Shown here: positions 22,086-62,478 of the stretch, piece after piece
Numbering within the stretch: the first letter of the stretch is position 1
How the letters are laid out: each line of letters begins with the position of its first letter
Assembly: GCA_017630395.1 (NCBI GenBank)
Contig: JAGBVI010000001.1
Span: 310,001 to 374,000, forward strand
Length of the DNA stretch: 64,000 nucleotides
Direction: 5' to 3'
From: Paludibacteraceae bacterium
GTDB taxonomy: Bacteria; Bacteroidota; Bacteroidia; Bacteroidales; Paludibacteraceae
The notes under the pieces: generated by a model
Database searches by the model: none
Told to the model about the DNA's origin: nothing
The model's input: only the letters and a program-made list of their open reading frames with translations
Made by a program: the position numbers and the translations under genes

Positions 22086-23039
22086 TTATTTAGTAATTTT
22101 CATTATCATTTCGGCAAGACATGCTGCCATACAAATCTCTGCATCAATCGCGCTTGTTAAACGATAGAGATATTCTGCAATAACAATCGTCCACTCTGCT
22201 TTCAACTTGTGGTCAAGGTCTGTCTTATCAATCACATACTTGTAAACTTGCATGAGAAGATTACTATAATCACCATTGAACTGTAACTCATTCTCAATTA
22301 CATAGCGTCTTGCAGCAATAGCATCCTTATTCTCAATCATATCGTCAATGAGATTGCTTACAAATACCTCATCCAACTTGAATTCCTTAACTTTGAGGAT
22401 GTTATTCTCATCTACACAGTTTTGTAGAGTCTTAATGACGGAGCGGATGTCAGGGTAGAAAGCATCTACAAGGGCAGGGATTTTGCGAATTTCCTCCATA
22501 GGAGCTTTAATACCCTCTAACTTAAGGATTTCCACACAACGCTTCACAATGTCCAACTTAGGAGCGGTAATATCCAACTCCACACAACGCGAAATGATAG
22601 GGTCGATAATCTTGTGACGATAATTTGCAGTAAGAATGAAGCGACAAGTATCAGCAACCTCTTCCATCAATGCACGAAGAATCTTCTGTGACTGAATATT
22701 TGAGAAACCGTCAGCCTCATCAAGAATAACAAGCTTCAAATTACCGTTGAGAGAGGCAGTCATGGCAAAATCCTTTACCTTAGTGCGAATAGTCTCTACA
22801 TTACCCTCATCAGAAGCATTGATGTAAAGCATATCACACTCAAACTCAATACCAATCACCTTGGCAAGAGATGTCTTACCCATCCCTGGACGAGAACAAA
22901 GGAGAAGATTAGGGAATTCACCCTCATTCTTCCAACTATCGAGCTGTTCTTTGGTAGCCTTAGGCAGAACCATGCTCTTGAAACAATCAGGACGATACTT
23001 AATCGCCCACATACCCTTTAACGCATACGATAACTTCAT
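22086..23039 (-). CDS. Sliding-clamp loader ATPase, T4 gp44/RFC-like
   Basis: 317 aa, close to T4 gp44 (319 aa). Visible motifs are an N-terminal KYRPDCF (the RFC box), Walker A SRPGMGKTS near residue 50, Walker B LVILDEADG near residue 107, sensor 1 around LTAN, and the SRC motif SRCVELD with its arginine finger. The protein loads the phage sliding clamp onto DNA for polymerase and, in T4, for late transcription through gp55. The -10 box at plus 23071-23076 with an AGAACT box upstream gives a leader of about 25 bases containing AGGAAAA. No in-frame TAG. Confidence 0.93.
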   Translation of the reverse strand: MKLSYALKGMWAIKYRPDCFKSMVLPKATKEQLDSWKNEGEFPNLLLCSRPGMGKTSLAKVIGIEFECDMLYINASDEGNVETIRTKVKDFAMTASLNGNLKLVILDEADGFSNIQSQKILRALMEEVADTCRFILTANYRHKIIDPIISRCVELDITAPKLDIVKRCVEILKLEGIKAPMEEIRKIPALVDAFYPDIRSVIKTLQNCVDENNILKVKEFKLDEVFVSNLIDDMIENKDAIAARRYVIENELQFNGDYSNLLMQVYKYVIDKTDLDHKLKAEWTIVIAEYLYRLTSAIDAEICMAACLAEMIMKITK

Positions 23040-35311: not shown

Positions 35312-37042
35312 TCAATCTGGGTCAAAAATGTCTACAAACTTGTAAGCTTCGATTGTATTCTTATACTCATTACCCTCAAATTTATGTATAATTTTTGAAA
35401 CATACAAATAAGTATACTTACTATAATTAATATCTGTACCAACCGTCTTATTGCTAACAGAGCCATCCTTCGCAACTGGGTCAAATCCAAACTTTATAAT
35501 TTCGTTCGGTCTTCTTCTTATATTACCTTGAATCGTAAATTTGTATGAATCATTTGCAAGGATAAAAGATGCAAGATTTTTACCCATAACTCGCATGCAC
35601 TCATTTAATGTATCTTCTGTTTGTGACGGATAGATGAACGAATTGTGTTCATCTATTTTACAAACAAAACCTTCCTAATAAGTATCAATACTCTAATCAG
35701 AATGACCGACATTATGCGCTGCCATCATCGCATGGAAGGCTGGCGTGATATTTGATTGTTTTTTTCTGATAGTAGTTGTGGTCGTAATTGACTCATTGAG
35801 AAATACATTTGTAAAATAATCGTAAAACCATGAGAAGAAAATCAAAACACTATCACCGCTTGTACTATCCCCAGCACATGACAAAAATATAATATTCTTC
35901 CAAAGTTTGTAAAGTTGACCTGCACCAGAATTATACTTAATGTCATAAATCATGCCATTATACTTACCATTTAAAGCGACTTGATTTTCATCTTCAACCT
36001 GTGGGTTAATATCTTCAAAAATGCCACCTTGTTTATCTCCACCAAAAGCAACCATAAATGGCATATAAATGTCTCGCATAGTCATTTGACGATATAACAA
36101 CTGTGGAGCACTCCCACCATAACTATTATTCAAAATCGCAAGCTTATCGACCGAATTTAAGACATCTGAACATGTATTCGTATAAAAGAAACATGGGTCT
36201 GGATATTCTTCTTTGAAGAAGAACGGTATTAATACATCACCTATCTATTCGTATACATTTGAAAAATGTTCAGGTGTTTTTAATGTAGTACAAGCGTCTT
36301 TGTAAATCTCCTATAACGCCTCATAAATTGTAGCATCTCTTTCAATCTTACCAAAAGTATGCTTAATCAATGCTTCCATGTTTACTTCGCCATCATTACC
36401 GCTAACTATTTTGTCCAAAAACATATATTCCTCGGTAAAAATAAGCTCTTTTTTCAAACAATATGTATTGTTAAGATTTGTTTGAATGTGGTCTTTAACA
36501 TAATCAAACAAGTACGCAAATAGTTTTTTATAACTGCCACATGTGGTTATCTCTTTATTATATTGTATAACAGAAGCTATACTATGTTGTTCAAAAATAG
36601 ACGTGATAACATCAACAAGTCCAACTCTCAAAATCTGAGTTTTTGAATCTTTACTACTAATTTCAACCACATTTTTAACATCAAAAATATAAGGTTCATA
36701 CTTTACAATAGGATTGTCATCGCTATTGTATTCAGTGATGTTTATTACCACATTAAAAAGATTCGCTTTATTTAAGAAAATGTCAAACTAAGAACCCTCA
36801 TTTATCACATCCATATAACCGCGCAATCCTATCGAATATAGGTTATCTTCCAAAACAATATTAGAAATATCCTTCGGATATTCCAACATAACAATATCGG
36901 AGTACATTTCCTGCGTTACTATCGGTTTAAATGCAAGAAATACAGAAATCTTATAGTTTTGGCAATTTTGTTTATAAGAAGTCTATTCGTCAGATAACGC
37001 AAAGTTATCATTCCAAAATTCTGTAATTTTAAGGTCTGCCAT
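35312..37042 (-). CDS. Baseplate hub candidate (gp27-like), 576 aa
   Basis: Six TAG codons (35675, 35693, 36245, 36311, 36788, 36983) from ATG 37042 to TGA 35312. N-terminal ~100 residues are beta-rich (YKISVFLAFKPIV). The C-terminal end has FTIQGNIRRRPNEIIKFGFDP and later YLYVSKIIHKFEGNEYKN, the late-control/gp27 pattern of a hub domain ending in a strand that checks for a correct fold (GxxxxRPxxxIxF...V..I.H.F.....). Placed two bases from the gp53-like gene. The hub assignment is moderately supported; no enzymatic motif was seen. Confidence 0.68.
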
Positions 37043-37044
37043 CG

Positions 37045-37341
37045 TTACTAAATTTTACTTACTACTTCTTCAATCATGCTTGGTTTTATTATTAAAATTT
37101 CTTCACCTCTCTTTGCGTAAAACACCATATCTTCATTCAAAGAACACAAAACCCACCAATAATCGATAGTGTTATATAACTGATACGATAAAATAGTCCA
37201 AGGTGTATCATCCTGAATGTGTTTCGTTGTATATATTTCATTGGTTTTATCGTTGGGGAAAACAACACGCCTACTAAGAGAAAGAAATGGCTAACCCTCG
37301 GCTGTTATATACGAATTAAAAATTTTTGAATAATTTATCAT
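37045..37341 (-). CDS. Baseplate wedge gp53-like (LysM-type) protein, 98 aa
   Basis: Frame from AT. Confidence 0.
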
Positions 37342-37345
37342 AAGA

Positions 37346-38899
37346 TTATGTGGTGATAGGTGTATCCGCAAATGAACTGAGAACCAAGTTTGCACTCGTT
37401 GCAATCAAAGATTTGAACTTTATTGTTACCATCCATGCTTCTGGAACTGGTATTGAAATATTGGCATTGGCAAATTCAAATAATTTATCTCCGCTTGACA
37501 AAATTCTAACCATTCCCAACGGTTGAACATCAACACTTTCAACATATGTATATGGTAATCTAATCGTGCCAGGTATAATTAAATCATAAAAAAGAGGTGG
37601 ATAATAAGCAACATTATCTTTTCTGAAAATCATGTTTTTCATACAAAATAACATGATAAATTTGTAATTCTTCTTCCACAACGGTTCAGTTCCATTTGGG
37701 TTTTTTACAGTATTAAGTAATGGAAAAGTTATGGTATATGTGTCGGTGTCGGTTGGAAATTGGAAGAATTTAGCTTTTTCAACATGTGAACGCTCAAATA
37801 AATCTCCTGTCGCTTCCCCACTCAAAAAACTATTAATTTGTGTTAAATCACGGCTAAGTGCAGAAATTGAAGAACCTAATGATGCAATGTTACTGAAAAA
37901 ACTATTCACACTCAAAATCGAAGTATCATCGCCATTTCCGTCTCCGAACGAATTTCGCGTACTTAAAACAGGTGGCGTGGAAATCATTGGTAAATTATAT
38001 CTCGTTCCAGTTGGTTTCAAATCATACAACAAACTATAAGGCTGCATAAAATGCTTATTCTTATCACCGTTAGTAGATTGTAACTTGACTGGATTTGTAA
38101 TCTAAGAAATCTTAGACCCAATATGATTTTCATAAAATTCTTTTAATTGATTTGAAATTTGTGTTACCGAAGAATTAACATCCGCTCCTTTAACATTTCC
38201 GCTGGTTGGATTTGTTGTATTACCAGATGAACTTCCACTATTTGAAGACGATGCGTTCGTTGGGGTTGATGAACCTGCGGTATCGCTATTTGAAGTAGTA
38301 GGTCCACTATTTGCGCTATCAGTTGTTGTTTCTGCTGCTGTTGCGGGTGTTGCAGCAGACTGACCACTCTGACTTGCCTATTGTTGCTATGTACCGTCAC
38401 CAGATGTTCCATTAGACTAAGTGGAATTGTTTTGTTGTGAAGACTGCGTATTGGCAGAAGAGGCATCACTTGCTGCATTCTATTGGGGGGTATTCCCGCC
38501 ACCAGAACTATTACCCCCACTATTTCCTCCACCTTGTGACTCACCCACATTTGTTAAACTCTTAATCAGACCAGACACCTTTGAAATAACATCAGTAATC
38601 TAACCATATGAAGTAATTGAGCTATTTTTAGCTGCAACAAAGCTATTAATCAAGTTGGTTATAGATGAAGAATAACGCTGCTAATACTCAACAATATAAC
38701 AATGTGGTATATCAATAGTTCCACCAGTAGAAGACATTTTAACACTGTCAATACTCCAAGGATAATCTGAAACCACGTCAACTATTTCAGAATCCGTGCC
38801 GTTGAAATTCTTCATACCTGTCTTGTTATACCAGCTATAAATTATACTATTGTAAACATTACTTCCGTAAAGAACACTTGTATCATCCGAATCAGCCAT
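37346..38899 (-). CDS. Baseplate-tail tube junction protein, gp48/gp54-like (517 aa)
   Basis: Seven TAG codons (38102, 38378, 38387, 38417, 38480, 38600, 38681). The C-terminal ~160 residues carry the tube-initiator pattern: YTITFPLLNT, W-K-K-N-Y-K-F-I, PPLFYDLIIPGTIRLPY and IPVPEAWMVTIKF. In T4, gp48 and gp54 cap the baseplate and nucleate the tail tube. Residues ~108-240 are a low-complexity Gly/Ser/Asn/Gln/Thr linker in which TAG alternates with CAA, supporting TAG as Gln. Start ATG 38899 lies six bases from a TAAATA element. Confidence 0.7.
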
Positions 38900-38905
38900 C
38901 GTTTC

Positions 38906-38911
38906 TATTTA
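38906..38911 (-). promoter_or_regulatory. TAAATA late-type element
   Basis: Minus-strand TAAATA exactly six bases before ATG 38899. Confidence 0.45.
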
Positions 38912-38920
38912 TTATGATTA

Positions 38921-41900
38921 TCAAACTTTAAGGGCATGTACAGACTCTATATTATTAACTTCATTGTGAGTCTACATATTTGCGGTGCAGATTTTACCCA
39001 ACTTACTTATATTAAGTGCATTTTGATTAGCTTTATTAGTATTGGAAACTACAACTTTTCCAATCATGTTTATTCCATTACTTAAAATCTATAACTATTC
39101 ATCATTTCGTTCTTTATCAAATACTCTAATACTACTCTTATGCCCATTCTTGTCTGTAAAATTGATGAGACAAGTTTTTTCTTCTGGATTATTTTCAATG
39201 ATTTCAACTCCACAATTATCCTAAACAATAGTTGACCTATTTGTTACATACTGTCTCTTCAAATAATTTACTGTATAATTTTTAACTGTGGTTAAAACCT
39301 CATGATTATTTGAAATCTGATTTGCAATAGTAGTAACAACACTTTCATTGTTAATTACATTATAAACCAAATTGTGCATAGTTGTACTATTGTCGGTAAT
39401 TTCTTCAACTACTTCTTCAACGAAATCATTATTTGTGATGACCGTATTTCTAAACTCATTCAAGACCTTTTCGTTATTAATGATGTTATTAACCAAGGTT
39501 TGTGCAATTTGTGTAATAATTTGGCTATTATCAGTAATTTCTTCAACTATCTCTTCCGTAATATCATTATAAAACTCTGTATTCTTTTTGAAAATATTTG
39601 TTGTCATCTCATTTAATACAGTTGAATTATTTGTAACATTACTAATTATCGTATCCGATAACTGATTCACAATAGTGCTATTATCGGTAATTTCCTCAAC
39701 TATTTCTTCTATAAAATCATTATTATTTGAAATGTTAATCATCACCTTATTGACAACTTCTGTATTTGAACTAATTGTTTGCACAAACGACTACACCAAA
39801 GTATTAACCACTGTATTATTATCAAGAAGCTCATCAACAATTTCTTCAATCAATATATTGTTATTAGTCACATTGAGAAGTAACTGATTCATGACAGTTT
39901 CATTATTAACAACATTACTTGTTATTTTATTAATTATAGAATCATCATTGGTTATCTGATTTGTAACTTCCTCCGTAAAAGTATTGATGTATGTATTTTT
40001 GACATGATTGTCAACCATATTGTTAATTGTTTTCTAATCAACCTTTACATTTGCACTTGAAGCATCACCAGAACCCAAACTTTTGATTTTATCTACTCGT
40101 TTTGAAATTTTTTCAAGTATTTTATTCGTTTCATCCAACTACTCATTCAAATCTGCGTCAATTGAAACAACATCTTTTATAAAAGCATATTGATTGGTTG
40201 GTTTATCACTTAATGAAACATTTACATTAATTACAAAATCACGAGAAGTATTGGCTTCTTCCGCATTTTGAACTTCTGTCTAGCTTTGTATTTTATCGGA
40301 AGATTCTTTTACTAGATTTGCAACCCCATCAAAATAAGTATTAAAGTAGTTGGCAACATCTGCAATATTACCCAACAATGTATTGGCGTAATCTCTGATA
40401 GCATTAAAAAATTGTACAAAATTATCATTGAGATTTTTCAACCCATTTGTTATACTTTTTGCAACAATATCACCATCGAGAAACTTTTTCATCGTAGTTG
40501 TCAAGTCAAGAAACGCCTCTTTTAGCGTTTCTTCAATCACCTTAACTGCATTTATTGTCACATTGGCATTAGCATCAACAGAAGCATCGTCACTTTCAAT
40601 TACATTTGTTTCTGATTGCTCTTGTCGTCTTCTTTCAAGCTCAGATGAAATTCTATCCTGTGTCTCCTTGTCTCTGTTAGCCATATCTATCAGCTTACTG
40701 AACGAATCACCCTATGCTTCACGCGCAGAATTTGCAGCATCTCGTATTTTTGCAGTCGTATTTGCAACACTATTACCTAAATTTTCATCCTCAATGACAA
40801 CATCTCCTTGTTCTGGTTGAGGGAGTTTTCTAAATTGCAATTGTGCTGCTGTCGCTTCATCCGAGATAGATTTTTTCAATGCATTAAACGCTTCTTCACG
40901 AGATAAGTTTCCATCCTAACTTGCTTGTCGCACATTTTCAAAAAGTTGTCTGGTATCAACTTGACCATCTTTAACCATTTGTAAGATGTCTTTGTTACCT
41001 TCAACCAAACCACTTAACTATTTTATCAATTCAGAGTTTTCGTCAAATTGTGAAAATTGAGCCGATGATGAAACAGCTTGAAGTTTCGTTAGTTCAGCGT
41101 TTGACATCTAATCAAGATTATCGCCAGACTAATCTACAATTTTTTGTGCATTAGAAATAACATCATTATCAGCTTCACCTGATTTAATTTCTGCTTCTGC
41201 CCTATCTGCAATTTCGTTTGATGTCTCTTCCAAAGTTGACGATTCTGCACTATTTTCAATTTCAGACTATAAATCCTGAGCGTCATCATTACCGAACATA
41301 CTAAGAATGTTGACATATAATCCAAAAATTGCATCTGGAAGTGTTCTTGAAAAGAAAATAACCAACGAATCTTTCAAATATCCTATAAGACCACTTACGC
41401 CGCCAGCAAGAAATGATTTTGCACCACCTTTAACAAAGTCAAAAGCATTTTCAACAAATTTACCTATAAAGTTTTTAGCTTTTTCAAAAATATCTTTAAT
41501 GAAGCCAGTTATATTTGGTACAGCATTCATTATTTTATCTTTGAAAACATAAAAAATTGCACCCAAAAGTCCAACTATTAGCATCAACTTACCCAAAAAA
41601 CCTGATGCCTTTTTAACTTTTTTAATAGCACTTTTTACCTTTTTAATGCCAGCGGTAAACTTTTCTTTTACCGTAGACATCATGCTTTTAAATTTAGAAG
41701 CTTTGAGTATGTTTTTAAATTCTTTACCAGCACCTTCAATAAACTCTTTACCGATATTTTGATATCTCTTCTTTTCGGAAGATGAAAGAGAAGCCTTTAA
41801 TTGATTTTTGTCAATGATGCTTTTTTCATTTTCATCTAATCCTATTTTTTCGGCAAGTTCATCAGTTTCTTCTTCCAAATTCTCAATTGACTCAGAATGC

Positions 41901-42001
41901 TCATCTATTTCTTCTTTAATCTGAGCATTCTGTTTATCAATTTCTTCGGCTCTCCTAAGTTCTTCAAGGATGCTTTCAATCTGTAAATCCACCTCTGCCA
42001 T
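38921..42001 (-). CDS. Large virion protein with membrane segment and tandem repeats (1026 aa)
   Basis: Fourteen TAG codons in one frame from ATG 42001 to TGA 38921 (first 41267, last 38972). N-terminal ~60 residues are a charged coiled coil; one strong hydrophobic helix (GKLMLIVGLLGAIFYVF) lies near residue 145. Residues ~660-895 hold tandem repeats of about 46-51 residues centred on EEIVEEITDNS, followed by Asn/Ile/Val-rich helices. No family recognised. It is one of three consecutive large proteins with hydrophobic helices between the tube initiator and the gp26-like gene, so a tape-measure or injected hub protein is possible. Confidence 0.78.
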
Positions 42002-42007
42002 CTGAAT

Positions 42008-42013
42008 TATTTA
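42008..42013 (-). promoter_or_regulatory. TAAATA late-type element
   Basis: Minus-strand TAAATA exactly six bases before ATG 42001. It lies just beyond the stop codon of the upstream gene. Confidence 0.45.
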
Positions 42014-42015
42014 AT

Positions 42016-43872
42016 TTATAATTCATCAAAACCTTCTTTAATCTACTTCAATAAAGTATTTCTCCGTTCATATCTTCGTTTTAAGTCATTCTTAGCTCTA
42101 ACCTGTCCTTTAACCAAACTTTCAATTAATGCTGATTCATTTCCTACCTATATCTCACCTTCAAAGTCTTTAACATCCCTATCCGAAACATAAACATTAC
42201 TGCTTGCCCTAAACTTTTTGTCGTCTTGGGAGATTAGTTTTAATCTTTCAAACCAATCATTAACAATTTCCAATGTATCTATGAAAATAAATTTAAAACT
42301 AAAAACAACACCAAAATTAATGCGCTCAAAGGAGAGCATTGGATTTTTAGAAAAATCATCAATATACTTTATAAATGTCTATACATACTCTGAAAAACTA
42401 ATTTTATTTTGTCTCACATCATTAGCAGCATTTTCTATTTCATCGAACTTTTTTTCCGTTAAAATTGTGTCTAACTTCTGATTAACTTCTTTCATGTCAC
42501 GGTTCAATCTCGCAGACAATTTGTCATTCCTATCTAAAATGAACTCAAATTGACAAATTGCATAATAAATCGCAGGAATAAACATATAAAGAACAATGGG
42601 TATTATATTCGTTGAACCCCAAGTTTTTCCACCGAATCTATTCTTAATCTCGTCACAAATTTGTTTAGCAAAAGGATGAGAAGACGAGCTATATTTTTTC
42701 TAAAAGTCAATAATTTTATTATATGAATCTTTCAACTGCTATGTATTTTTTGGGTCTTGAAGATTATTATCCAAATTAATTGTCAAATTTTCAAAATCAA
42801 CATTATCACCCCATTCAATATCAATAGTTTTATCACGCCAATCCTACCAACCGTCAATTAAATTTCTATATGCTTCTGTATCTAATAGATTAGGATTTCC
42901 GTAAAAACTTTCAACTCGCTCTTCCTAACTAGCCTCTTCTGCTGCTTTTTGAATACCATGTTGGTACTCATTTATCTTTTCTTTAACCTCGTCCAATTCA
43001 TATGATGTCCAAGGTAAACGACTATTACCAGCGTCAACACCCTTAAAAACCTAAAATCCCTCATCGTCCTACACCACGCCTATCGCAGCATTACTAAAAT
43101 CAGAAAACCTGGTTGCAGTATTTTCAACACGTCTCAATACATCATAATTAGCATTATCAAGTGCTTCAACTTTTTTATATGTCTCATTTCCGTACATTAA
43201 CCAATGACTGATTACTGGTCTTGAAATACCTTTATTGCCAAAAAACGCATAGGCAAGTTTCAACATCCATCCGAGAGGTCCTTTTGCGCGAGACACAACA
43301 GATTTTGCCCACTCATCCAAACAACGAAGAAAGACATTGTTTTGCATTTCATTAAAGAAATTGAAAACCAATTCCACCATAAAATCGCCAATAGGACCCA
43401 AATACTCTTTTGTAAAATCAACAACCTAATCCCAAATCTTTCCCAAATCTATATTTGAAAAAATTTTTTTCAATTCATCACCAACAACATCACCGATATT
43501 TTTTGCAAAATCAACTACCTTCTTCATTTTGTTTGGCATTAACCCGAATGCAATTATACCTAACTAACATGCAATTATGAAATTAAGAATCGTATTCCAC
43601 AATTTTGATTTGCCGTCGTTTTCTTCTCTTACCTAATTTGCCCTGTCTTGTATCGATTTTGTGTATTGATTCACATGTTCCTGATATTGTTTTGTAAAAT
43701 CGTTGTTGAGAATTTTAGTATCAACACTTTTTATGACCTATGAATGAAATTCGGTCATAAAATGATGAGAACCTTTTAAAAAATTCTCCGCAATCTAATG
43801 AAATCGTTTCTTTTCATTAGATTTAAGATTAGGTTTCACCTGACTATTATTGATTACATTTTCATCATCCAT
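42016..43872 (-). CDS. Large virion protein with two hydrophobic segments (618 aa)
   Basis: Fourteen TAG codons (42043 to 43795) from ATG 43872 to TAA 42016. Hydrophobic helices lie near residues ~95-110 (ILNFIIACQLGIIAFGL) and ~425-445 (NIIPIVLYMFIPAIYYAI), with charged helical regions around them and a basic C-terminus. No family recognised. Helical, membrane-capable and next to the hub genes, it may be a tape-measure segment or an internal injection protein. Confidence 0.77.
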
Positions 43873-43884
43873 AATATGTCAAAA

Positions 43885-45882
43885 TTATAGTGCATTTAAT
43901 GCAAATGCTAATTTCTTTACATTATTTAAAACTTGCTTTTCCTTTTTGAGCCACTCGTTTCTCGGAATGATAATGTCGCTTAAATCTTTTAACACAACAG
44001 TAGTTTCATTATGACCCCACAAAGTTCCAGCTACTCTTTTTTTCGTTTCAATTTTTTGTTCCGCACCAGAAGACTTTTCTACCGTCAAGGATAATTCATT
44101 GAGTTGACCGTCTTTCGTCTCACCTTGTACAAAAAATACATTTACAATGTTAGAAAAAGCATTATTGATTATTGTTTTACCCAATGAAAACTTGGAATCA
44201 AATTTTAATCTAGCTCCAAAAAGTGACCCATCTGTTCCGTATAACAATTTTTTACCATCCTATTTTGAAAGTCTGACATAATTATCCTTAATCACCCCAA
44301 CTTTTTTAAGAGTTTCAATTGTTCCTTGTTTCAAATCATGTCCCAAATTATAAACTTTATCACCTCTCTATAACTACAATGTTTTTTCTTTTGTATTGAA
44401 CGAAAATGAATCAAAATTAAAAACATCATTTGAACGAGTCGGCTCATAAACATCAATTTTAGGTATTTCAATATCAGCTTTAAACTTTGTAATCATTTCT
44501 CCAATTATCTAAAAATCAAGCCCTGTATTCTACACCTCTTGCACAAACACACCATTGGTTTCAGAAATTTTACTATATAAGTTTGAAATGTAAGAAACAT
44601 TTGAATCTGAGTCTTCGCGCTCGTCCATTTTATTGAAAAAGTTTTCCATTTTAGTAATCTAATTGACAACTCCTCTACCAAATCTCGCACCTCTTTGTCT
44701 CAAAGAACTTCTGAACTCTAACATTTCTTCCCTATCAGCACTGATATACTGGAACATTTCAATGGAGCCTAAACCGACATCAACTGCCATATCTGCAACC
44801 TTTGCCCTTGTACCAACTTTATTGAGCAATTCTCTTCTCTAACCCCTATCCATTCTACGCATTCTTTCAAGGAACTTAATCGTTGACTACCCACCTCTTT
44901 TCGCCAAAGATTTAGCACCATTGAACATTTTTCTACCAGCGTTAATTACCTGAATGACTTTTTTACTTCTAGCGACAGTTTTATAAATGCTGGTTACTGT
45001 TTTACCAAATTTGGCAATTCTTGCAGCGATTGCAACCCATCTTGCACTATTTGCGATTTTAAGTGCAATACCAGCAGGGGCGGCAACGCCGGAAGCAGTC
45101 ATTGCAACTGCAATAGCATCAATAGCTAAGGTTAAAGCAATATCCCATAAAATCAATGCAACTTGTTTACCTATCCAAATCCAAATTGACCGATTTATTT
45201 TATTGAATAACATATCCGTTGCAGCATATAACATTCTTGTCATAGTGAACAAAAATGGGCTAATACTTTCTTTAAGTCTCTCCAAAATTGTACTATTCAA
45301 ATACTTGGAAAAATCTTTACCCATTTTATCTCTATCCAACTCATTGGATAAATTGTAATCGGATAAATTAAATCCGTGTTCTTTTTTGTCACTTTTTATT
45401 TTGGACACATCAAATACTCCACGGACACGGGCAAAATAACCGTAAAATCGTATAGCGAATGAAACAATTTTAAAAATACCACGAGCATTTTTAATAAATT
45501 TAAGAAAGAGATTACCTTTTTTATCATCTTTCAATTCATCTAACTCATCCTCTGCTTCATCCTGTGCTTCTTTCAGCTCACTCCAAGCATTATCAAATAT
45601 TTCCTTTAATTCTTTAACTTTTATTTTTCGATACCTCGCATTAGTTTCCTCAACATATGTTTGTATCAGAGTTCCGTTTCGTAAACTATCAGTTAAAATA
45701 GGAACTACACCTTTTTTGAATCTCTAAAGTTGTTTACTACCAAAAGTAGTTCCAGACTTATCCGAATTCTCCTTATCAATGTGCTCTTCGGCTGAACTTT
45801 TTAAACCATTAACTATATCGTCAAAGAAATCATCTTTGACTAGCATATTTTTCTTCTTGATTATTTGCTCTTTTTTAATCAT
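43885..45882 (-). CDS. Large virion protein with long hydrophobic helix region (665 aa)
   Basis: Nine TAG codons (44260, 44368, 44374, 44509, 44530, 44659, 44839, 44887, 45724) from ATG 45882 to TAA 43885. After a charged N-terminal coiled coil, residues ~235-300 are strongly hydrophobic (IWIWIGKQVALILWDIA, then AIAVAMTASGVAAPAGIAL). A basic stretch follows, then a beta-rich C-terminal domain. Start overlaps the upstream gene by eight bases, implying coupled translation. ATG 45846 is a second possible start. No family recognised; tape-measure-like role inferred from size and position. Confidence 0.77.
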
Positions 45883-46711
45883 AATGATTCTGAATCAATT
45901 TATTAACCGAAGTGTTATCACCATTTGCCTCCTCCTGTTCTTTCCTATTTTCCTCTATCACGCACTTTAATAAAATAGATGCTTCAACATGACTAATTTT
46001 CATGAAGTCACTATAACTCATTCTCAGATGTCGTATGGCAGCATATGTAACATGATAGAAAACATCCAATGGCATCTTATAAAAGGAAATTACATTTGCA
46101 AGCAAAGCTTCGCTAAAAGAGTTAATCTTCATTGAATTCATAGGAACTTCATGAAGTAAATCAATCTCATTTTCAAACCCCTACCTCAATGTCTATTCTA
46201 TAAATGATATATGCTTGGTTGGCAATTTTGTTTTAAGAATATCCTTCTGTTCCTATGTAACATCTTCTCCATTGATTTTTTTCAAACCGCTATAAAAATC
46301 AATAATAGGTAATTCTCCATCAATGCTAAATGATGTCGGGTATCCAAATGATAGAACATAATTTTTACCAATGTTATACTCTATATTTCTAACAGGTACG
46401 TATTGACTTTCAATATTATTCAAAATCTATCCTATCGTTACCTCCTGATTACCAAGCATTTTATTCGTGACTTCAATAGTCGGTCTAATACTATACATAC
46501 ACATCGCAATCCAAATATAACATTTTTCAACAATATCAAAGTTATCAAAATCTGGAATATCTCGTTTTGCTATCTCAGTGATACACTCAAAGAAATTTTT
46601 ATAATCTTCACCTTGAAGATACTTCAAAATGATGAGATAATCCCGATTTGAAATCTCTTGTATTGTGCAGTATTTTCCTGATGGGGTGGTAAGATAGTTC
46701 TTAAAAATCAT
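45875..46711 (-). CDS. Possible baseplate hub assembly protein (gp26-like), 278 aa
   Basis: Four TAG codons (46181, 46193, 46253, 46427) from ATG 46711 to TAA 45875. The N-terminal block (IQEISNRDYLIILKYLQGED, then C-x-Y-S-I-R-P) resembles the helical N-terminal part of T4-type hub assembly proteins such as gp26 and gp51, but the match is weak. It is the first gene of the leftward hub operon and overlaps the next start by eight bases. A TAAATA element lies 12 bases upstream, back to back with the one for the gp15-like gene. Confidence 0.6.
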
Positions 46712-47997: not shown

Positions 47998-49827
47998 ATG
48001 TTAAACGGAGGAAATAGATTTCAGACAAGAATAGCAACATCGCTTTCAAATGCATTAGCCAATACAAACTTTCTAGGTCGCGCTTTGAAAGGTGGCATTT
48101 CTCAATTTGAGAACCCCAAGTGGGATAACTTTGAATAGACAGGAATGAGACGAAGAGAAGCTCTTCTTACCCATTCTGTAAGCGGCTCTCTCTTACATCA
48201 ACAAGAGCCTACTGCTTATGGTGCTGCTTATGGTGGAAGATACAATGCTTACGCCAATGTTCTTTATCATACTCTCGATGCAGAAAAGTCAAATCGCATT
48301 TATGAGTATCGTCTCATGGCTGCTTTCCCTGAGGTTGCCAACTGCATTGAGGAATATACCGATAACTTCATCTGGGAGGATGAAAGAGGTCACGTGGTCA
48401 ACCTCAAATACACAGATGAAGACCTACCAGAAGAACAAGTAAAAGACATTGAACAAGAATTCCAAACTTTTGCTGGTTATTTTGATTTCAAAAATAACGG
48501 TGCTCAAATGTGTAAAGATTACATTACTGACGGTGAATTGTATTATGAATATTTGATTGATAGCACAACGCCAGAAAATCGTAAACGAGGTATCCTTGGT
48601 GTTCAACGACTTCAAACAGAACTCATGGAAGCTGTTTATAAGGACAAAACTAATGGTATTGTTGGTGCTTTCATCGGGCGTAACATTACATACAATGATA
48701 AGACTAAACACCAAGTCATGATAAACAATGTTCCTTATCATCCTAATGAGATTTTCCATATTCACAGTGGCACATGGGACCCTAGTGGTGAATGGGTAAT
48801 TCCTTTCATTGAACGCGCTCGTAAGCCTTATGTGTAGCTTTCTTATCTTGAAGATGCTATTGTAATCTATCGTCTTGTTCGTGCTCCTGAACGTCTTATC
48901 TTTGATATTGACACAGGTAATATGCCTCCTCATGAAGCAGAAGCATATATCCAATCTGTTCAACAGGAATATTGGCGTTCTAAGTCATTTGACCTTGACA
49001 AAGCAGACATCATTCATAAGTTTGAACCACAGTCAATGTTAGACGCTTTCTTCCTTTCTCGTTCCAATGGAATGGAAGCTGTGAAAATTGAATAGTTGGC
49101 AGGTGGTCAGAACCTCGGTCAATTAGATGACTTACAATTCTTCCTTAAAGCTCTTTATCGTGCTCTTAGAATCCCTGTAACTTATCTCAATGAAGATGCA
49201 CAAGGTATTGGTTCTGACGCATCTCAAACACTTCGTGATGAACTTCGTTTTGCTAAACGAATCATTGGATTCCAGAATAAGTTTGCACAAGGTCTTCGTG
49301 ACGGTTTTATTACTCACTTGAAACTCACAGGTAAGTACGACGAATACCAACTCAAAGAAACTGCTTTTGAAATCAAGTTCTGTCCTCCCTCTAACTACTA
49401 CGAACTCCGTAGAAAACAAGCTATGCAATTAGATGCTGCTGCATTTAATGCTATAGTTAGCAATGATTGTATTTCAAAGAGTTGGGCAATGAAACGTATT
49501 TGGGGATTGACAAATGCCGAAATTAAACAAAATCAAAGATTGCTTATGATTGATGCTATTAATCAATGGAAAGTTGAACAAGCCAAGGCTAATGGCCCAT
49601 TCTGGGAAACTGCTGCTGCTATGGCTATGGCACAAGGCGGGGAAAACGCTGGAGGTGATATGGGTGGAGGTGACTTCGGAGGTGGTGACATGGGAATGGA
49701 TTTTGGAGGTGACTTCGGAGGTGGTGACATGGGTGGTGACATGGGTGGAGGTGACGATATGTCATTCTCAGATGACGAACTCGACACAATGGAATCCGAC
49801 CTTGATGCTGCGGATGAAATGTTATAA
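47998..49827 (+). CDS. Portal vertex protein, T4 gp20-like
   Basis: 609 aa with TAG codons at 48136, 48835 and 49093. The signature LEDAIVIYRLVRAPERLIFD, then DIDTGNMPPHEAEAY and GGQNLGQLDDLQFF with Y-R-A-L-R-I-P-V, is diagnostic of gp20. The portal is the dodecameric ring through which DNA is packaged and ejected. It is longer than T4 gp20 (524 aa): residues ~547-590 add a Gly/Asp/Met/Phe low-complexity tail (GGDMGGG, DFGGGDMG) ending in an acidic segment. Two bases of the TAA-to-ATG spacing leave a short intercistronic gap. Confidence 0.96.
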
Positions 49828-50659: not shown

Positions 50660-51355
50660 TTAGTTATCAAGAGAATCAAAGACTTCCACGTCATCTTCAC
50701 ATTTAGAAGAAAGTACCTCTTCCATATCTTCTTCCTCATCATAATCTTCTTCATCATCGGAGTCATCCTCATCTTTTTCATCATCGGAATCATCAGAATA
50801 CCAATCATCATGTGGTGCAAGCATAGTGTCAGCATCGTCTTCTTCCCACTCATCTTCATCATTAGAATCGTCAAACATTGGATTCTCTTCCTCTGTATCA
50901 TCTGATTCATCTGAATCTTCGCTACGAAGCTCATCAAGAATGTCAATAAGTATTTCCTTTATTTCAACATCTTCCAAATCATCCGAAGTATTGGACTCAA
51001 AACCACCACCAATCATGAGGTCTTCCATGTCATCATTCTCATCGTCTTCACAATCGACATCATATCCACAAGAAGGACAAAGGTCATGTTCGGACTCATA
51101 TTCATCTGTGGAAATTATACCATCGTGTTCGCAGCATTCAGACTCATCATCGTCAGTCAATTCAGTAGCACCGAATGGCTCGTATTCAGACTCCCAATCA
51201 AGGTCTTGGTCAGGGTCAGCGGTAATAATGGCAACAATTTTCTTGCCCATGTTCTCCATCTCGTGACCGTCATCCATTGCTGTGTCAAGGTTATTGTCGT
51301 GGTAAGCGTTCACGATGGACTCTGTAATTCTTGAGTATATGTTTTTTCTAATCAT
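50660..51355 (-). CDS. Very acidic protein with zinc-ribbon-like Cys motif (231 aa)
   Basis: Asp and Glu dominate the C-terminal half (runs such as DDSDDEKDEDDSDDEEDYDEEED). The middle holds CCEHDG and CPSCGYDVDC, a likely zinc ribbon. The N-terminal ~40 residues are helical with normal composition. No family recognised. Candidates are a DNA-mimic inhibitor or a transcription or assembly factor. It lies 24 bases downstream of the gp55-like sigma gene and has its own TAAATA element 11 bases upstream. No in-frame TAG. Confidence 0.75.
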   Translation of the reverse strand: MIRKNIYSRITESIVNAYHDNNLDTAMDDGHEMENMGKKIVAIITADPDQDLDWESEYEPFGATELTDDDESECCEHDGIISTDEYESEHDLCPSCGYDVDCEDDENDDMEDLMIGGGFESNTSDDLEDVEIKEILIDILDELRSEDSDESDDTEEENPMFDDSNDEDEWEEDDADTMLAPHDDWYSDDSDDEKDEDDSDDEEDYDEEEDMEEVLSSKCEDDVEVFDSLDN

Positions 51356-51379: not shown

Positions 51380-51901
51380 TTATTCACTAATTGAAATTTC
51401 CATTTCTTCATTGTAAAATTCCCCTAATTTAGATGTGAATGTAGGCTTTACATAGATGTCCTCATCACAATCCTCAGCAAAGTCTCTCAAATGTTCTTCG
51501 CCATACTTATTAACCATATCAAAATGTTTCTTCTCTACCTTAATACGATGTACAAACTCATGATTAGCTATCATATTGAAATAAGAGAATGGATTAAAAC
51601 CTCTATCTGGGTCAAACTTTCTATTCAATAATGCTTTCGTACACTTCGTTAAAGCATCTCCTAACATATCCTCCCTCCAAGTGTAACCACTAAACTTACC
51701 ATGATTACTTAATCCTAAACAAACCTTATATATTGCCAATCCACACATATCAATCGCTTTCTTTCTCTGTCGAACAATTCTTCTGTATTCCTTTGTGTTT
51801 GTGTCACCCTAGTAATTGTTCATTTCATCATCCCACTTATAAAAGTCTTTTATAAATTGAGTGAAATCGCTTGATTTTATATAATGATTATCGTTACTCA
51901 T
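51380..51901 (-). CDS. Late-transcription sigma factor, T4 gp55-like
   Basis: 173 aa (T4 gp55 is 185 aa). The gp55 core is clear: AIYKVCLGLS, then YTWREDMLGDALTKC, then FDPDRGFNPFSYFNMIANHEF and RIKVEKK. In T4, gp55 directs host RNA polymerase to TATAAATA promoters, activated by the clamp through gp33. An in-frame TAG at codon 31 (51809) must be read through to make the sigma domain. A TATAAT box at plus 51916-51921 lies 14 bases upstream of ATG 51901. It is divergent from the gene at 51962. Confidence 0.9.
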
Positions 51902-51947
51902 TTGCTCTAATTACAATTATAACACGATTTTATTGTTAAGGGAGTAA

Positions 51948-56697: not shown

Positions 56698-57825
56698 TTA
56701 CCCTTCAATTTCGTTAAACATCACTCCACTTTGTTTGAAAATGTTGTAGAATGTATTAAAACGAATCTTTGCGGACTTAGCAGTCGTTGTACCCTTTGCA
56801 ATAGAATCAAGCAACTCTACATTGTTCTTAATTGCATCATAATACATTGCCTTAACAGTATCACGGTTCTTAAACACGCTATCCATATCGGCAAATGAGA
56901 AGAAGTACATTAACACTTCAAAAATACCCTGATTAAATGAACTGAACTTAGGTTCTCCGTTTTCTGTTACCCACACACCATTTTCAATAATCGGTCGGCA
57001 GAACGCACGAGTACCGAAAATAGACTTAATGATAGTAATGGCATTATTAAACTTCGTCTTAAGATTACCCTTATACTCTTCAGTCAGTTCAGCAGGATTA
57101 TCACGGAAATGACCGAGATGCTTATCCAAATCGCCATCAGGATTGGCAGGATTGGCTGCATAGTTTAGGGTATTCTGATAGAATGTCTTATTGTGAATAA
57201 GAGTAGCCCAAATCTGACAGAACTTCTCATGTTCAAGCTTCTTCCTGTTCACAGTGTTAGCCTTAGAACCAAGAATAGAAAGGTAATCCTCATTGTTACT
57301 AAGTTCCTTCAAGAAGTCATAATAAGGCCCAGAAAGACTATTACGGCGAATTGCACCAGAAGTAAGAGCAACACCCTTAGTATTAATACGATTGTAATGG
57401 TCTTTAATTACGGAAAGAGGAGTTCCATGTACCCATCGCTCAATCTTAATACAAGACTGTGCAATAATCCACTGGTCAACACCAAAATCCTTAAACTTCT
57501 TCCCATTAAGATGCTTAAGACGCTCAATCTCAGTCTTGAACTTAAACTTGTTCTCCATGAAACGGCGAAGAGTAGTAAGGCGTTGCTGACCATCGCTAAA
57601 ATATGTCATGGTTTTCCCATTTTCCTCAATGTCATATGCAAAGAAAGTAGGAAGCGCATAACCAAGAAGGATAGACTCAATAAGAGAGGTCTGGTTTGGA
57701 AGCTTCCAAACATATTCTCGCTGGAAGTCAGGACTTACCGAATAAGTACCACTCTGAAGGTTACGAACAACTTCTTCAATAGTTGGCTTGGTCTCTTGTG
57801 TTACATACGGATTATACTTAGACAT
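56698..57825 (-). CDS. DUF262 family protein (GmrSD/ParB-like nuclease fold)
   Basis: 375 aa. DUF262 hallmarks: VSPDFQREYVWKLPNQTSLIESILLG near residue 33 and YFSDGQQRLTTL near residue 74 (the DGQQR motif), then IKIERW and YNRINTKGVALT. In type IV restriction enzymes (GmrSD) this domain is the NTPase/specificity part; stand-alone copies are widespread and their role in phages is unknown. No partner nuclease domain (DUF1524) is seen at the C-terminus, which instead is helical. The leader is long and C/A-rich. No in-frame TAG. Confidence 0.85.
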   Translation of the reverse strand: MSKYNPYVTQETKPTIEEVVRNLQSGTYSVSPDFQREYVWKLPNQTSLIESILLGYALPTFFAYDIEENGKTMTYFSDGQQRLTTLRRFMENKFKFKTEIERLKHLNGKKFKDFGVDQWIIAQSCIKIERWVHGTPLSVIKDHYNRINTKGVALTSGAIRRNSLSGPYYDFLKELSNNEDYLSILGSKANTVNRKKLEHEKFCQIWATLIHNKTFYQNTLNYAANPANPDGDLDKHLGHFRDNPAELTEEYKGNLKTKFNNAITIIKSIFGTRAFCRPIIENGVWVTENGEPKFSSFNQGIFEVLMYFFSFADMDSVFKNRDTVKAMYYDAIKNNVELLDSIAKGTTTAKSAKIRFNTFYNIFKQSGVMFNEIEG

Positions 57826-57959: not shown

Positions 57960-57978
57960 GGGGATTTTTTAAATCCCC
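57960..57978 (-). terminator. Terminator at the DNA polymerase stop
   Basis: GGGGATTT (57960-57967) and AAATCCCC (57971-57978) form a perfect stem that contains the polymerase TAA. A minus-strand T tract follows. Confidence 0.85.
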
Positions 57979-60701
57979 AAGATGTCAAACAAACTAAACT
58001 CGTAGTTCAATGTAGGGTTAAAAGCGGGCCAACCCATTGTCTGATAATACCTTCTGAGTTCTTCATAGATAATCTTCTCAAATCCTGTCTTGTTATCAAT
58101 CTTGAATAAATTATCAAACTCACCTGGCCATTCGTCCAAGAAACAAATCTTCTCAATACCCCACTCATTATCCTTTTCAACAGGAACAATCTTCACAACA
58201 TCGCCACCCTTTACTTCCTGTAACTTATTGATACCCTTTTCTTTGATAACTTTGTTGTAGGTCTGTGCTACTCGGATGTGACCAGGGATTACTATCTTCT
58301 TACCATAATTGTCATAGGTAAGATACTTCACATTCTTTCCTTGTATCACTTCCTCAATTCTAAGATTAGAATACTTATCCATGTTATTACAACGCTTAGT
58401 CTCTGCCTTTTCCGTGGGATTCATCTCACAGTAATCCTTGTAGAGTTGATTTATCATGATGTCTGTACTCTGTCTGTCCTGTGTGAGCATCATGTTCTCT
58501 ACAATCTTCTTACCCATCTCTTTCAAATTTGCAGGCATTACAGACCGTGCAAACTTCACCCCTGTATACTTGAACTTAGGATGCTTAACACCCTCATTAT
58601 CAAGGATATGCAATACATAGTTCTTCTTAGCTGCTTCATCTGCATTGTTCAACTTGGTCAAATACAAGCCACCATCACAGATTTTCTCACGTTTGAAGTA
58701 CAAGCAACAGTTATGGCTATTCGTTTTCTCCTCATACCATCGTGGAAATTCAGTAGAGAAGAAATCGTCAGCCTCTTGCACAAGGGCATATCCCTCATCT
58801 GTTACTCTGTCACCATCAAACATTTTGATACCTACGCCACTGAAATCAATACCCAATGAGTCTGTATCATTGAATACAACCACTCTATCCCAATCAATGT
58901 CAGATGTAGTGCCTAACTCCTTACGCTTGGCTTCTACAAACACCTTAGCAAAGGCATTCATCTGCTGAATTGAACGGCTACCCATCGAGCAAATAGCATT
59001 ACCAATGTCATCATCACCCAAGGGATTCATGCGACTATTGATTGCACCATACGCACTGTTAATCAAAATCTTAATAGTATACTGCATGATGTCCTTCTGT
59101 TCAATAATGTAATCATTCTCCTTAATCTTGGCTTTGAGTTCCTTGATAAGTTCCTTGTTACCCTTATTGGCTTTAATCTGCTTCTCTAACTCTTCGTTCT
59201 CAGCGTTCAACTTCTTAATGTCCTTACGCTCTCTGTTACGGTTCTCGTAGTTGGTACGCATGTACTCAGGGAAAATACCCTCGCTCTTCTGAGTGAATAC
59301 ACAACCATTTGCAGATAATACCAAGTCAAACTTCTGAATGAAAATCTTCAACTGACCTCTGTTAATTCTACGCTCATGTCCCTGAATGTCCTTAAAGGTA
59401 AGCATATCAGAATCATCACCATAATACACATCTCGGTTGAAGTCAAAGTAACACATACCTACCTTTGTTTCAGGTGACATGTTATTGGAACGAACCAATG
59501 AGGGATAAAGTGATGAAGCATCATAAGTTACAACACAATTATAGAAGCCAGGGTTAGAAGATACGAAACCACCAACCTTATTCTCATCATCAGTGCCACG
59601 GAATGTATGAATTTGAACACCACGTGCTTTTGCTAATCGTGTAATACCTCCATTGGTCACAGGAATTGTGGTAATACCTTTACTGTAATTCACACAACCA
59701 ATGTTGCTAATCATTCGTAAGATGTCCATGTAGCGCATCTTACCGTCCAACCTCACAATTAGTTCTACGTCTCGGACGTTGTATTCTACGAACTTATCCC
59801 AGTCATGTTCCATGAATTCGTAAATGGTCATACCTTGGTAGTCTACCTTACCAACGCCTAATTCCATTGTACAAATGTAGTCCAACTTGTAAGACTCTTG
59901 TTTTACTACCTTGAACTTGGTATAAATCTCCTGATAATCCATGAGGTCAATTCCTGCCACATCATAGCGAGTAATCTTTTTCATCATCTTATCCACAGCT
60001 TCACGCTCATTGATAACGCCATAGGGAGAAAGTCTATAATACTGTGCATCACCCAACTTCTTCTTGATACGATTGAATGTATAAGGATAGTCAAAGCCAT
60101 TACTATTCCATCCTGCTACAATGTCAGGATAGTCCTTATCACACCACATGTCTACAAATCTTTGTAAAAGGTCTTTCTCATCCTTACACTTTACAAAGAT
60201 TGCTTGCTTTATCAATCCCTAACCACTGTATTCATTCTTAGAGAATACATAATACTTCTTTACCAAACTGTCATAAGCAGTAATAATGTTAATCTCTGCC
60301 TTCGCTTCTTCAGGCTTAGGGAATTCACCATTAGGCAAGGGGTCTACCTCAATGTCAAAGAAAATAATTCGTAAGGGATTGGCAGTAAAGTCTTTATCTT
60401 CTACCTTATCCCAATACTCGTCCAATAGGAACTGCTGCGTTACATCAAAATTTTCATATATACGCTTCGTCTCTTTATTCTTGAGGTAACGGCTTCTGTC
60501 CCAAGGCTGTTCAAACTCCTTCTTGATTAGCTTAGTTCCAAACAAAGATTTATAAGTTCCTCTTGGATGTTCAATGTAAATGTAAGGTGAGTAAGGTTTA
60601 GTCAAACGGACACGATTACCCTTACTATCCCAAGTAGATAGTTTGATACATGGTCCGCCTAAACTCTCATCACTACACCACCAAGCATTACGATAACTCA
60701 T
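57969..60701 (-). CDS. DNA polymerase, family B, T4 gp43-like
   Basis: 910 aa. Exonuclease motifs FFDIEVD (Exo I), AGWNSNGFDYPY (Exo II) and YNVRDVELI (Exo III), and polymerase motifs YDASSLYPSLV (A), NSAYGAINSRMNP (B) and FNDTDSLGID (C) are all present. The catalytic Asp residues are intact. One in-frame TAG at 60216 (codon 162) lies between Exo I and Exo II; without suppression it would give only a short fragment. Start ATG 60701 is chosen because a TATAAT box ends six bases before it; an upstream ATG at 60731 would lie outside this transcript. Confidence 0.95.
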
Positions 60702-60707
60702 ACCACT

Positions 60708-60723
60708 ATTATACGGATGTTCT
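60708..60723 (-). promoter_or_regulatory. AGAACA-N4-TATAAT promoter of DNA polymerase
   Basis: Minus-strand AGAACA, TCCG, TATAAT (plus 60708-60713), six bases before ATG 60701. The -10 overlaps the TAA of the small upstream gene. Confidence 0.68.
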
Positions 60724-60911: not shown

Positions 60912-62456
60912 TTATCTTTTCTCAATAGAACTGTTTATCTCTTCAATCTCACTATCAATCGCTTCCTTAAACTTTTCAACTTTATCTACTTCATCAATAA
61001 GTTGTTCGTCTTCGGAAATGAAAAGAACATCAAATGCTTTATATTCCTCATCGAGGATATTTTCAGTGAGCCATACTGTTACAATGTTCTTTTTCTCGTC
61101 ATGCTCGTACTTTGAGAAATTCACTACATTTACAACATCTTCTTTATCATTCTTGTAATGAATCGTGATTGAGGAATCAATGTCATCGAAAGGAGGACAA
61201 CAATAGATACTTTTAACTTCTCGTGAAATACTAAATGCTCCTTTAACAATAAACACCTTCGGGTCAATGTAATTTCTAACAATTATCTTTTTACCTTTTT
61301 GTAATTTATGAAGAAGATTACAAAGTTCACTCCACTTACTGAGGTCAATGATAGGAGCAGTTTTCTCAGATTGCTTATTCCACTTATTCATCAACATTTC
61401 TTCAATGGCTTGAAGATAATTTATTTCAACTCTTTCTGCATTCAACCAATCTTTTGAATATTCAAATCGAGGGGCTGGATACTCTTTATCAAATGTATCT
61501 CTATTGTGGCCTTCGTTATTAATTACTTTTGTAGTTTCTTCTGACCAATCCCATTCCTTTCTACCCAAACCTCTATTAGTCCAACCATTTATGATAAGTC
61601 TGGACTTCAAGAAACTCCACATGTAACTGATGGGCATGTCTCTATGTTCAAGAAATTCACCACACCACAAATCAAAAATACGCTTAGACTCGACATGAAC
61701 ATCAGGTCTAAACCATTTCCATTTTGGAAATTTCCTATCTTTGACAATAGCCTGAAAACTCCATCCATTAGGTTCTGTAACAAGTCTCTTGGTAAGACTT
61801 GTCATTTTATCACTAACAAAATTATCCAAAACCCTTACAAATCTATCGTATTCAGTTTGTTTCTCTCGCTCCTCATAAAAATCCCAATGTCTTCTTCCAT
61901 TCTTATCACCAAAGAAGTTCTGCTTTATGTCCTCATCAACTCTATCAAGACTTTCCAATGGAATAGCCTCATCAGTGCGTTCTGCCAATTCATCGTTCAA
62001 TTCAAGAGGGCGCAAATCATCAATCAAAACCGTTTTGTCATCAACTCCACACAATGCAGAAGTCAAAGACTTTTCAGCAATGTAATCAAGGGAAAGTTCA
62101 GAAAGTTTTTCAATTATAGAAGGCTCAGGGTCTTCGTCCATCTCCTTTCTGAGAAGTGCTGCTCTATAAAAATCCCCAATTTGACGATACACATCATCGT
62201 AATCCTCACCATCAAGACACTCAACAAAAACATATTTCAACCCCAAGTCATCATAGGTCGCTGAATGAAGTTTTGTTTCTTTCTCAATCTCCTGTAGTCT
62301 ATCCCTTACACGTTTAGTTTCAATGATGGAAATGTCTCGTTTCACCATTTCCTCTGCAATCTACACCAACGTATCTGAGGTCTTCACCAACGCTGACTTA
62401 TTTGCGTCTTTATCATCGTATTCAAATACCTTTTCTTCAATCGTTACTCTTACCAT
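60912..62456 (-). CDS. Early protein of unknown function (514 aa)
   Basis: Reads through TAG at 62361 (codon 32) to TAA 60912. Highly charged and helical throughout, with an acidic N-terminal third (ERTDEAIPLESLDRVDEDI) and an acidic C-terminus (EAIDSEIEEINSS). No catalytic motif or family was recognised, and it is not a large terminase: no Walker A or B motif is visible. The start is six bases from a TATAAT box with an AGAACT box, as for DNA polymerase, so it may belong to the replication set. Confidence 0.75.
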
Positions 62457-62462
62457 ACAACT

Positions 62463-62478
62463 ATTATACAGTAGTTCT
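62463..62478 (-). promoter_or_regulatory. AGAACT-N4-TATAAT promoter, six bases from ATG
   Basis: Minus-strand AGAACT, ACTG, TATAAT (plus 62463-62468), then six bases and ATG 62456. Confidence 0.65.

Follow-up and report, generated by a model that had tools for sequence, protein, structure and literature searches.

Judged by its sequence, contig C113 is a giant T4-like jumbo phage that reads TAG as an amino acid, and its use of TAG is sorted by promoter motif: early-type genes have nearly none, genes behind a replication-type box take an intermediate place, and late-type genes are densest. The window, a stretch of 64,000 nucleotides (C113:310001-374000), includes a gp55-like late sigma factor gene that is itself interrupted by TAG. 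This TAG is probably a glutamine codon like any other, in a gene expressed after the early period, such that late expression would depend doubly on the suppressor tRNA, via the sigma factor and via the late reading frames, with no dedicated timer.

A recoded T4-like phage and its suppressor tRNA

C113 comprises 375,692 bases and its ends share an exact terminal repeat of 141 bp, which makes a complete, circular phage genome probable. In the ORF set used for TAG counts (433 ORFs, largely non-overlapping, at least 80 aa), TAG stands as a sense codon 405 times in 111,319 codons, and 152 of the 433 contain it. ARAGORN predicts 27 tRNAs on the contig, including a suppressor tRNA with a CTA anticodon (C113:235055-235130) that is drawn with four arms and has an unusual T loop; Rfam does not detect it even with the E limit raised to 1. 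When compared by eye, the 5′ acceptor side of this tRNA equals that of the phage tRNA-Gln at six of seven positions, while exchange between TAG and CAA/CAG codons is demonstrated only in the Lak phages considered below, not in C113. The release factor domain PF00472 was not found on C113, its only matches being on two other contigs.

Upstream of the CTA tRNA on the same strand, the nearest late-, middle-, and early-type motifs lie at about 223, 441, and 701 nt, respectively. The early motif matches its consensus at 12 of 12 positions, and a terminator-like hairpin is located between it and a tRNA-Gly. Since all three types of motif lie upstream, the tRNA could be made early and in larger amounts later, and it may be made from the start of infection. 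The layout fits reading of the gp55 TAG as an ordinary codon and is also compatible with a self-reinforcing code switch, in which gp55 would need the suppressor tRNA and the nearest motif of the tRNA would be of the gp55-dependent late type. We judge such feedback decidedly improbable; were it true, some TAG decoding would allow the sigma factor and the suppressor to raise each other, giving a sharp commitment to late expression.

In other recoded phages a theta ribozyme is published as lying beside the suppressor tRNA (PMC10879173). As a candidate here it was rejected, Rfam at E 1 having matched nothing within 401 bases, and at gathering scores Rfam matched only tRNAs in loci L018-L021 and the window. 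Two further Rfam tRNA matches on C113 (198299-198373 and 244131-244244, one of them 114 nt long) are not default ARAGORN calls, which suggests odd or intron-bearing tRNAs. The ribosomal protein S7 of the bin has as its nearest chains 9i5v and 7jil, both of which we take to be from Bacteroidota, and the early motifs of the phage, TTGACA/TATAAT, differ from the Bacteroidota kind. It may be that C113 was binned wrongly and that its host belongs to another phylum.

The late sigma factor gene and its in-frame TAG

A preliminary description of this DNA had reported a gp55-like gene with a TAG at 51809, codon 31, ahead of the sigma core, and this is borne out (Table 1). The product matches the late sigma factor family PHROG_234 at E 3.8e-26 and the T4 gp55 structure chain 7d7c_F at E 2.4e-11; Pfam Sigma70_r2 reaches only 13.1 bits, with a cut-off of 24. 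Position 51809 is the last base of the TAG, the sole stop interrupting the frame, and the accompanying claim that full-length sigma factor would require TAG decoding is supported, as it follows from the frame itself. The gene resembles T4 gp55 (PHROG_234; 7d7c) in its sequence family, its sigma region 2-like core, and the TAAATA late-type box of the phage, and differs in having the TAG together with an extra stretch of approximately 23 residues. In alignment A1 the TAG sits within this stretch, which is absent from five of six viral relatives and partial in the sixth, and the N-terminal motif 5′ of the TAG aligns with all six, with Y7 invariant. Because that motif is common to the relatives, the part preceding the TAG belongs to the gp55 gene, which is also supported by the TATAAT near the ATG. 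By the motif rules applied, the region 5′ of the ATG has no -35, middle box, or late box.

The shared motif bears on whether the TAG is simply bypassed. Restart at the in-frame ATG at 51748 would yield a 122-aa sigma factor with the whole core and require no suppression, and the 122-aa ORF retains 88.3 of the 93.3 bits to PHROG_234. However, by eye there is no promoter-like box or clear ribosome site 5′ of this ATG, conservation of the motif ahead of the TAG in six relatives argues against dispensing with it, and the bypass could not be general, since gp55 of the Lak phages lacks a Met between its last TAG (codon 46) and codon 72. On balance, restart is improbable. It is exceedingly unlikely that the gene is broken or the TAG an assembly error; the lack of a close relative for comparison leaves some room for it, but 119 of 357 long C113 ORFs contain an in-frame TAG, the contig has a CTA tRNA, TAGs of this kind occur in eight of eight Lak gp55 sequences, and the gp55 frame has no further stop.

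The TAG had also been proposed to act as a switch for late genes, that is, as a selected gate whereby build-up of the suppressor tRNA sets the timing of late transcription. We regard selection of this kind as rather unlikely. That the TAG of C113 precedes the sigma core, as do three differently placed TAGs in the Lak sequences, speaks for a gate; its frequency speaks against one. At the genome rate 0.63 TAGs are expected in 173 codons, with a probability of 0.47 for at least one (0.21 at the middle-class rate), and TAG is present in 32 of the 109 C113 genes of 140-210 aa. For a C113 gene as long as gp55, a single TAG is not unusual and, being within chance at the genome rate, needs by itself no special cause. 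Nor is gp55 a significant outlier against its TAG-poor flank (1/173 versus 3/4513 codons, p 0.14), and the other flank is TAG-dense (62/4986 codons). Just 3′ of gp55 lies a 231-aa protein (50660-51355, minus strand) that is very rich in Asp/Glu and has a CxxC motif, a late-type box, and no Pfam match.

Table 1. Features of the window, in window coordinates
Feature	Position	Strand	Remarks
gp55-like late sigma factor gene	51901..51380	-	173 aa with TAG read as Gln; PHROG_234 match
In-frame TAG, codon 31 of gp55-like gene	51811..51809	-	Between N-terminal motif and sigma core
TATAAT preceded by TGn	51916..51921	-	15-20 nt 5′ of gp55 ATG
In-frame ATG, codon 52	51748..51746	-	3′ of TAG, just 5′ of sigma core; possible bypass start
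Family B DNA polymerase (gp43-like)	57969..60701	-	From ATG beside middle-type box
DNA polymerase TAG	60221..60219	-	Inside exonuclease domain
Middle-type box AGAAC-N5-TATAAT, DNA polymerase gene	60708..60723	-	
514-aa protein, function not assigned	60912..62456	-	TAG at codon 32
Middle-type box AGAAC-N5-TATAAT, 514-aa gene	62463..62478	-	
Clamp loader, gp44-like	22086..23039	-	TAG-free; middle-type box upstream
Block of six large ORFs	35312..46711	-	4 to 14 TAG each; small overlapping ORFs left aside
Portal protein, gp20-like	47998..49827	+	3 TAG; late-type box

TAG use by promoter class

Promoter classes were derived from k-mers upstream of ORFs and denote motifs, not mapped transcription starts. 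The early class requires agreement with TTGACA-N16-18-TATAAT at 11 or more of its 12 positions (2.3% of random positions), the middle class AGAAC-N4-8-TATAAT, where the second part may have one mismatch (3.4%), and the late class TAAATA 9-24 nt 5′ of the start (0.4%). The T4-type late promoter box is of the TATAAATA kind. A box of this kind precedes the late genes of C113, with TAAATA in 74 genes; portal, terminase, sheath, and major capsid are among these 74, which are of late class only. TAG is found in 3 of 39 early and 12 of 42 middle genes. The earlier statement that late genes are full of TAG holds on average, their density being highest, but only 36 of the 74 contain one and the major capsid gene has none. 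The remainder are 14 mixed genes, 4 of them with TAG, and 264 of the 433 without a class, gp55 included, of which 97 have TAG. Within gene bodies (codons 11 to minus 10, counted from the first ATG) there are 0.36 TAG per 1000 codons in early, 1.36 in middle, and 4.72 in late genes, and the unclassed genes, at 3.69, come close to the late class. A length-stratified permutation of late versus early gave 122/20,000, and middle and late differ less (Fisher p 0.049 for genes with TAG), p-values that are optimistic because the classes were chosen after inspecting the same genome.

Middle-type boxes lie within about 110 nt 5′ of replication genes 41, 43, 44, 46, 47, and 32 and of the 514-aa gene, and no middle box lies upstream of uvsX and gp61. 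An AGAAC-N4-GTATAAT box is seen before several of the replication genes, and the AGAAC box is a possible middle-promoter system of the phage. The TAAATA motif occurs 72 times at 11-20 nt 5′ of frame starts, and no other 10-nt bin has more than 6; late-type messages, and probably that of gp55 itself, would accordingly have very short leaders.

A T4 protein set of 54 queries was compared with the C113 ORFs, and TAG falls within the T4-homologous region of genes 17, 18, 20, 21, 25, 32, 43, and 47. The structural side of this set consists of terminase, portal, sheath, gp21, and gp25, and the replication side of DNA polymerase (171), gp47 (219), and SSB gp32 (261). The major capsid gp23, gp4, gp13, gp53, gp44, gp46, uvsX, uvsW, and a weak motA match are TAG-free, with the matches to gp3, 13, 15, and 53 weak (E 3e-5 to 4e-3). 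Primase (gp61) has TAGs at codons 351 and 363, outside the homologous region. An apparent TAG at codon 5 of gp41 was discarded as spurious; it is outside the homologous region, and the middle-type box overlaps that start. Both further TAGs named in the preliminary description are present, at codon 32 of the 514-aa protein and in the DNA polymerase, where the codon given as 162 is 171 in the TTG frame and 161 counted from the ATG next to the promoter-like box. Because the TAGs of DNA polymerase, SSB, and gp47 lie inside conserved regions, TAG decoding would be needed at or before replication, and a gate placed on late transcription meets the difficulty that decoding must come earlier.

The position of TAG within genes was dropped as evidence for a gate. 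Among genes with a single TAG, 30/74 in C113 and 28/52 in Lak-A1 have it in the first fifth, an excess that is at least partly an artefact of frames extended 5′ of the true start, gp41 being one case.

PHROGs gave no match for the five ORFs searched of the six-ORF block. For gp33 and gp45 in C113, PF02916 had no match, PF16805 gave nothing above cut-off and none on the phage contig, and the T4 gp45 and gp33 queries had no phmmer match at E 0.01. The 375-aa phage protein at 56698-57825 (minus strand) has a GmrSD restriction endonuclease N-terminal domain (PF03235, E 4.4e-20).

Lak megaphages and other relatives

Prevotella phage Lak-A1 (541,664 bases) was analysed similarly, as a whole genome and with motifs of its own, which were likewise chosen after inspecting the genome and include no middle class. 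ATAAATA lies upstream of 74 of 155 TAG-rich genes (4.7 expected) and 24 of 273 TAG-free genes (8.2 expected). The motif TATCTTTG, which we take to resemble the Bacteroidota -7 element, precedes 32 of the 273 TAG-free genes and none of the 155 TAG-rich ones. TAG occurs in 1/36 early-class and 89/114 late-class genes (Fisher 8e-17), with 368 genes unclassed and one mixed; body TAG per 1000 codons is 0.16 for early, 10.56 for late, and 7.82 for no class (permutation of early versus late, 0/20,000). Within T4-homologous regions, Lak has TAG in gp41 and gp46. At Lak-A1 225329-226308 (L215:5329-6308), a 256-aa ORF containing 11 TAGs has a CTA tRNA on either side, a pair situated about 2.4 kb from the portal gene and 8 kb from gp55, away from the main tRNA cluster.

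A search with profile A1 detected gp55 in each of five Lak genomes, always with three TAGs, and in these and three IMG/VR loci (eight of eight sequences) the TAGs stand at codons 20, 33, and 46 of 128. The first is inside the gene, as it sits in the conserved N-terminal Y motif. Here gp55 is a local outlier, with TAG at 3/127 codons versus 8/5273 in 22 neighbour genes (Fisher p 0.0018), and such an island amid TAG-poor neighbours favors selection for a gate. Retention of the codons does not. As a control for codon turnover, 328 orthologues of Lak-A1 and Lak-B2 with a minimum of 60% identity were compared. TAG is kept as TAG at 409/604 sites that stay Gln, and gp55, whose two versions differ by 30 synonymous codons and 2 amino acids, keeps three of three, an outcome that matches the genome-rate prediction (probability 0.31, or 0.677 cubed). 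Similarly diverged genes with at least three such sites kept all in 4/41 cases, making full retention less common among them, and three sites are few. In the early class of Lak, 0/70 CAA/CAG sites in 20 orthologues have become TAG, versus 237/1871 genome-wide (P 8e-5). The clearest sign of selection in these comparisons is the avoidance of TAG by early-type genes, rather than any favoring of TAG in gp55.

Close relatives of C113 were not found among viral contigs queried with gp55, portal, and DNA polymerase, of which gp55 alone gave any relatives (14, all distant), nor by gp55 in genome contigs, by megablast of window positions 40001-64000, among 150 genomes around the bin (bin included), or with profile A1 in 395 genomes of the phylum or 393 of the order. 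Besides the bin, profile A1 has weak matches in 16 phylum and 10 order genomes (E 6e-7 or worse, no internal stops), which are probably cellular sigma factors.

Outside Lak, TAG is clearly inside gp55 in none of 221 relatives. The aligned stretch has TAG in 0/94 IMG/VR loci, where TAGs further 5′ always had a Met after them, and in the Lak-side family (80 loci) it has TAG only in three, the Lak contigs counted above, and in none of the other 77; TAG is found in the match of 0/45 genome-contig loci, with L169 left open by a TAG just before it, and inside gp55 in 0/5 huge phages. Taken alone, this distribution would favor a gate particular to the recoded lineages. Reading TAG as sense, however, adds 0.32-0.35 to local coding coverage in the Lak loci, and the gain does not exceed 0.10 in the remaining 77, 0.13 in the 94 IMG/VR loci (short contigs), and 0.01 in the five huge phages, the sets that this comparison covered. 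The relatives look like standard-code phages, in which TAG could not persist, and so its absence says little about selection.

Discussion

Several elements of the proposed gating of late genes by the gp55 TAG stand, including the identity of the late sigma factor, the CTA tRNA, late-type genes as the TAG-richest, and the presence of TAGs in Lak gp55 too. The part left without support is the switch itself, given the earlier decoding demanded by replication genes, a CTA tRNA that may be made from the start, the chance-level frequency of TAG, and its expected retention in Lak. The reading we favor treats the TAG as a plain glutamine codon of a gene expressed after the early phase, against which it counts that both recoded lineages found, C113 and Lak, have gp55 TAGs ahead of the core. 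Under this reading only TAG-free genes would be read early in infection, as the phage CTA tRNA builds up from behind its early-, middle-, and late-type motifs. Once the middle period begins, TAG would be read as glutamine, allowing full-length DNA polymerase, SSB, and gp55 to be made; gp55 would then direct late transcription, and many late genes would need TAG decoding in turn. Since DNA polymerase and SSB need TAG decoding as well, the switch would be one from early to post-early, with gp55 on the dependent side. In T4, late transcription is coupled to replication and needs it (PMC2988020), and it needs gp55, which is termed a middle protein (PMC6024815).

The Lak phages (Prevotella, code 15) share with C113 the T4-like genes, TAG recoding, CTA tRNAs, gp55 TAGs, and TAG sorted by promoter, and differ in their size of about 540-550 kb, a distant gp55 protein, and an early motif TATCTTTG where C113 has TTGACA/TATAAT. 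Late-gene TAG/TGA recoding of gut phages was reportedly treated by Borges in 2022. Release factor 2 is reported for Lak genomes (PMC6784885), whereas C113 has no release-factor domain, a difference we do not count as defining. Gut phages of the crAss-like kind likewise read TAG as Gln, mostly in late genes (PMC7886860, PMC9523058); unlike these, C113 has TAG in the late sigma factor gene itself and a three-class gradient that includes several replication genes. One crAss-like phage is reported to have reassigned TGA in RNA polymerase, helicase, and terminase genes (PMC12386605); recoded stops are therefore already on record for genes of transcription and replication. For jumbo phages another study gives no protein-type preference of recoding (PMC13037316), which differs from the gradient in C113. 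A search confined to open-licence literature, hence a weak negative, found no report of TAG in a late sigma factor gene or of TAG by promoter class.

Late-gene recoding has been put forward as a timing device (PMC6784885, PMC9523058, PMC7886860, PMC10607447, PMC10879173), and in the available parts of these papers the idea of a late-gene delay rests mainly on which genes have the recoded codon. Promoter motifs supply an independent timetable, by which two distant T4-like phages with different early motifs show the same sorting of TAG, and they make the delay idea testable in any recoded genome without culture. With TAG present also in DNA polymerase, SSB, and gp55 itself, the likely switch would move to one from early to everything after.
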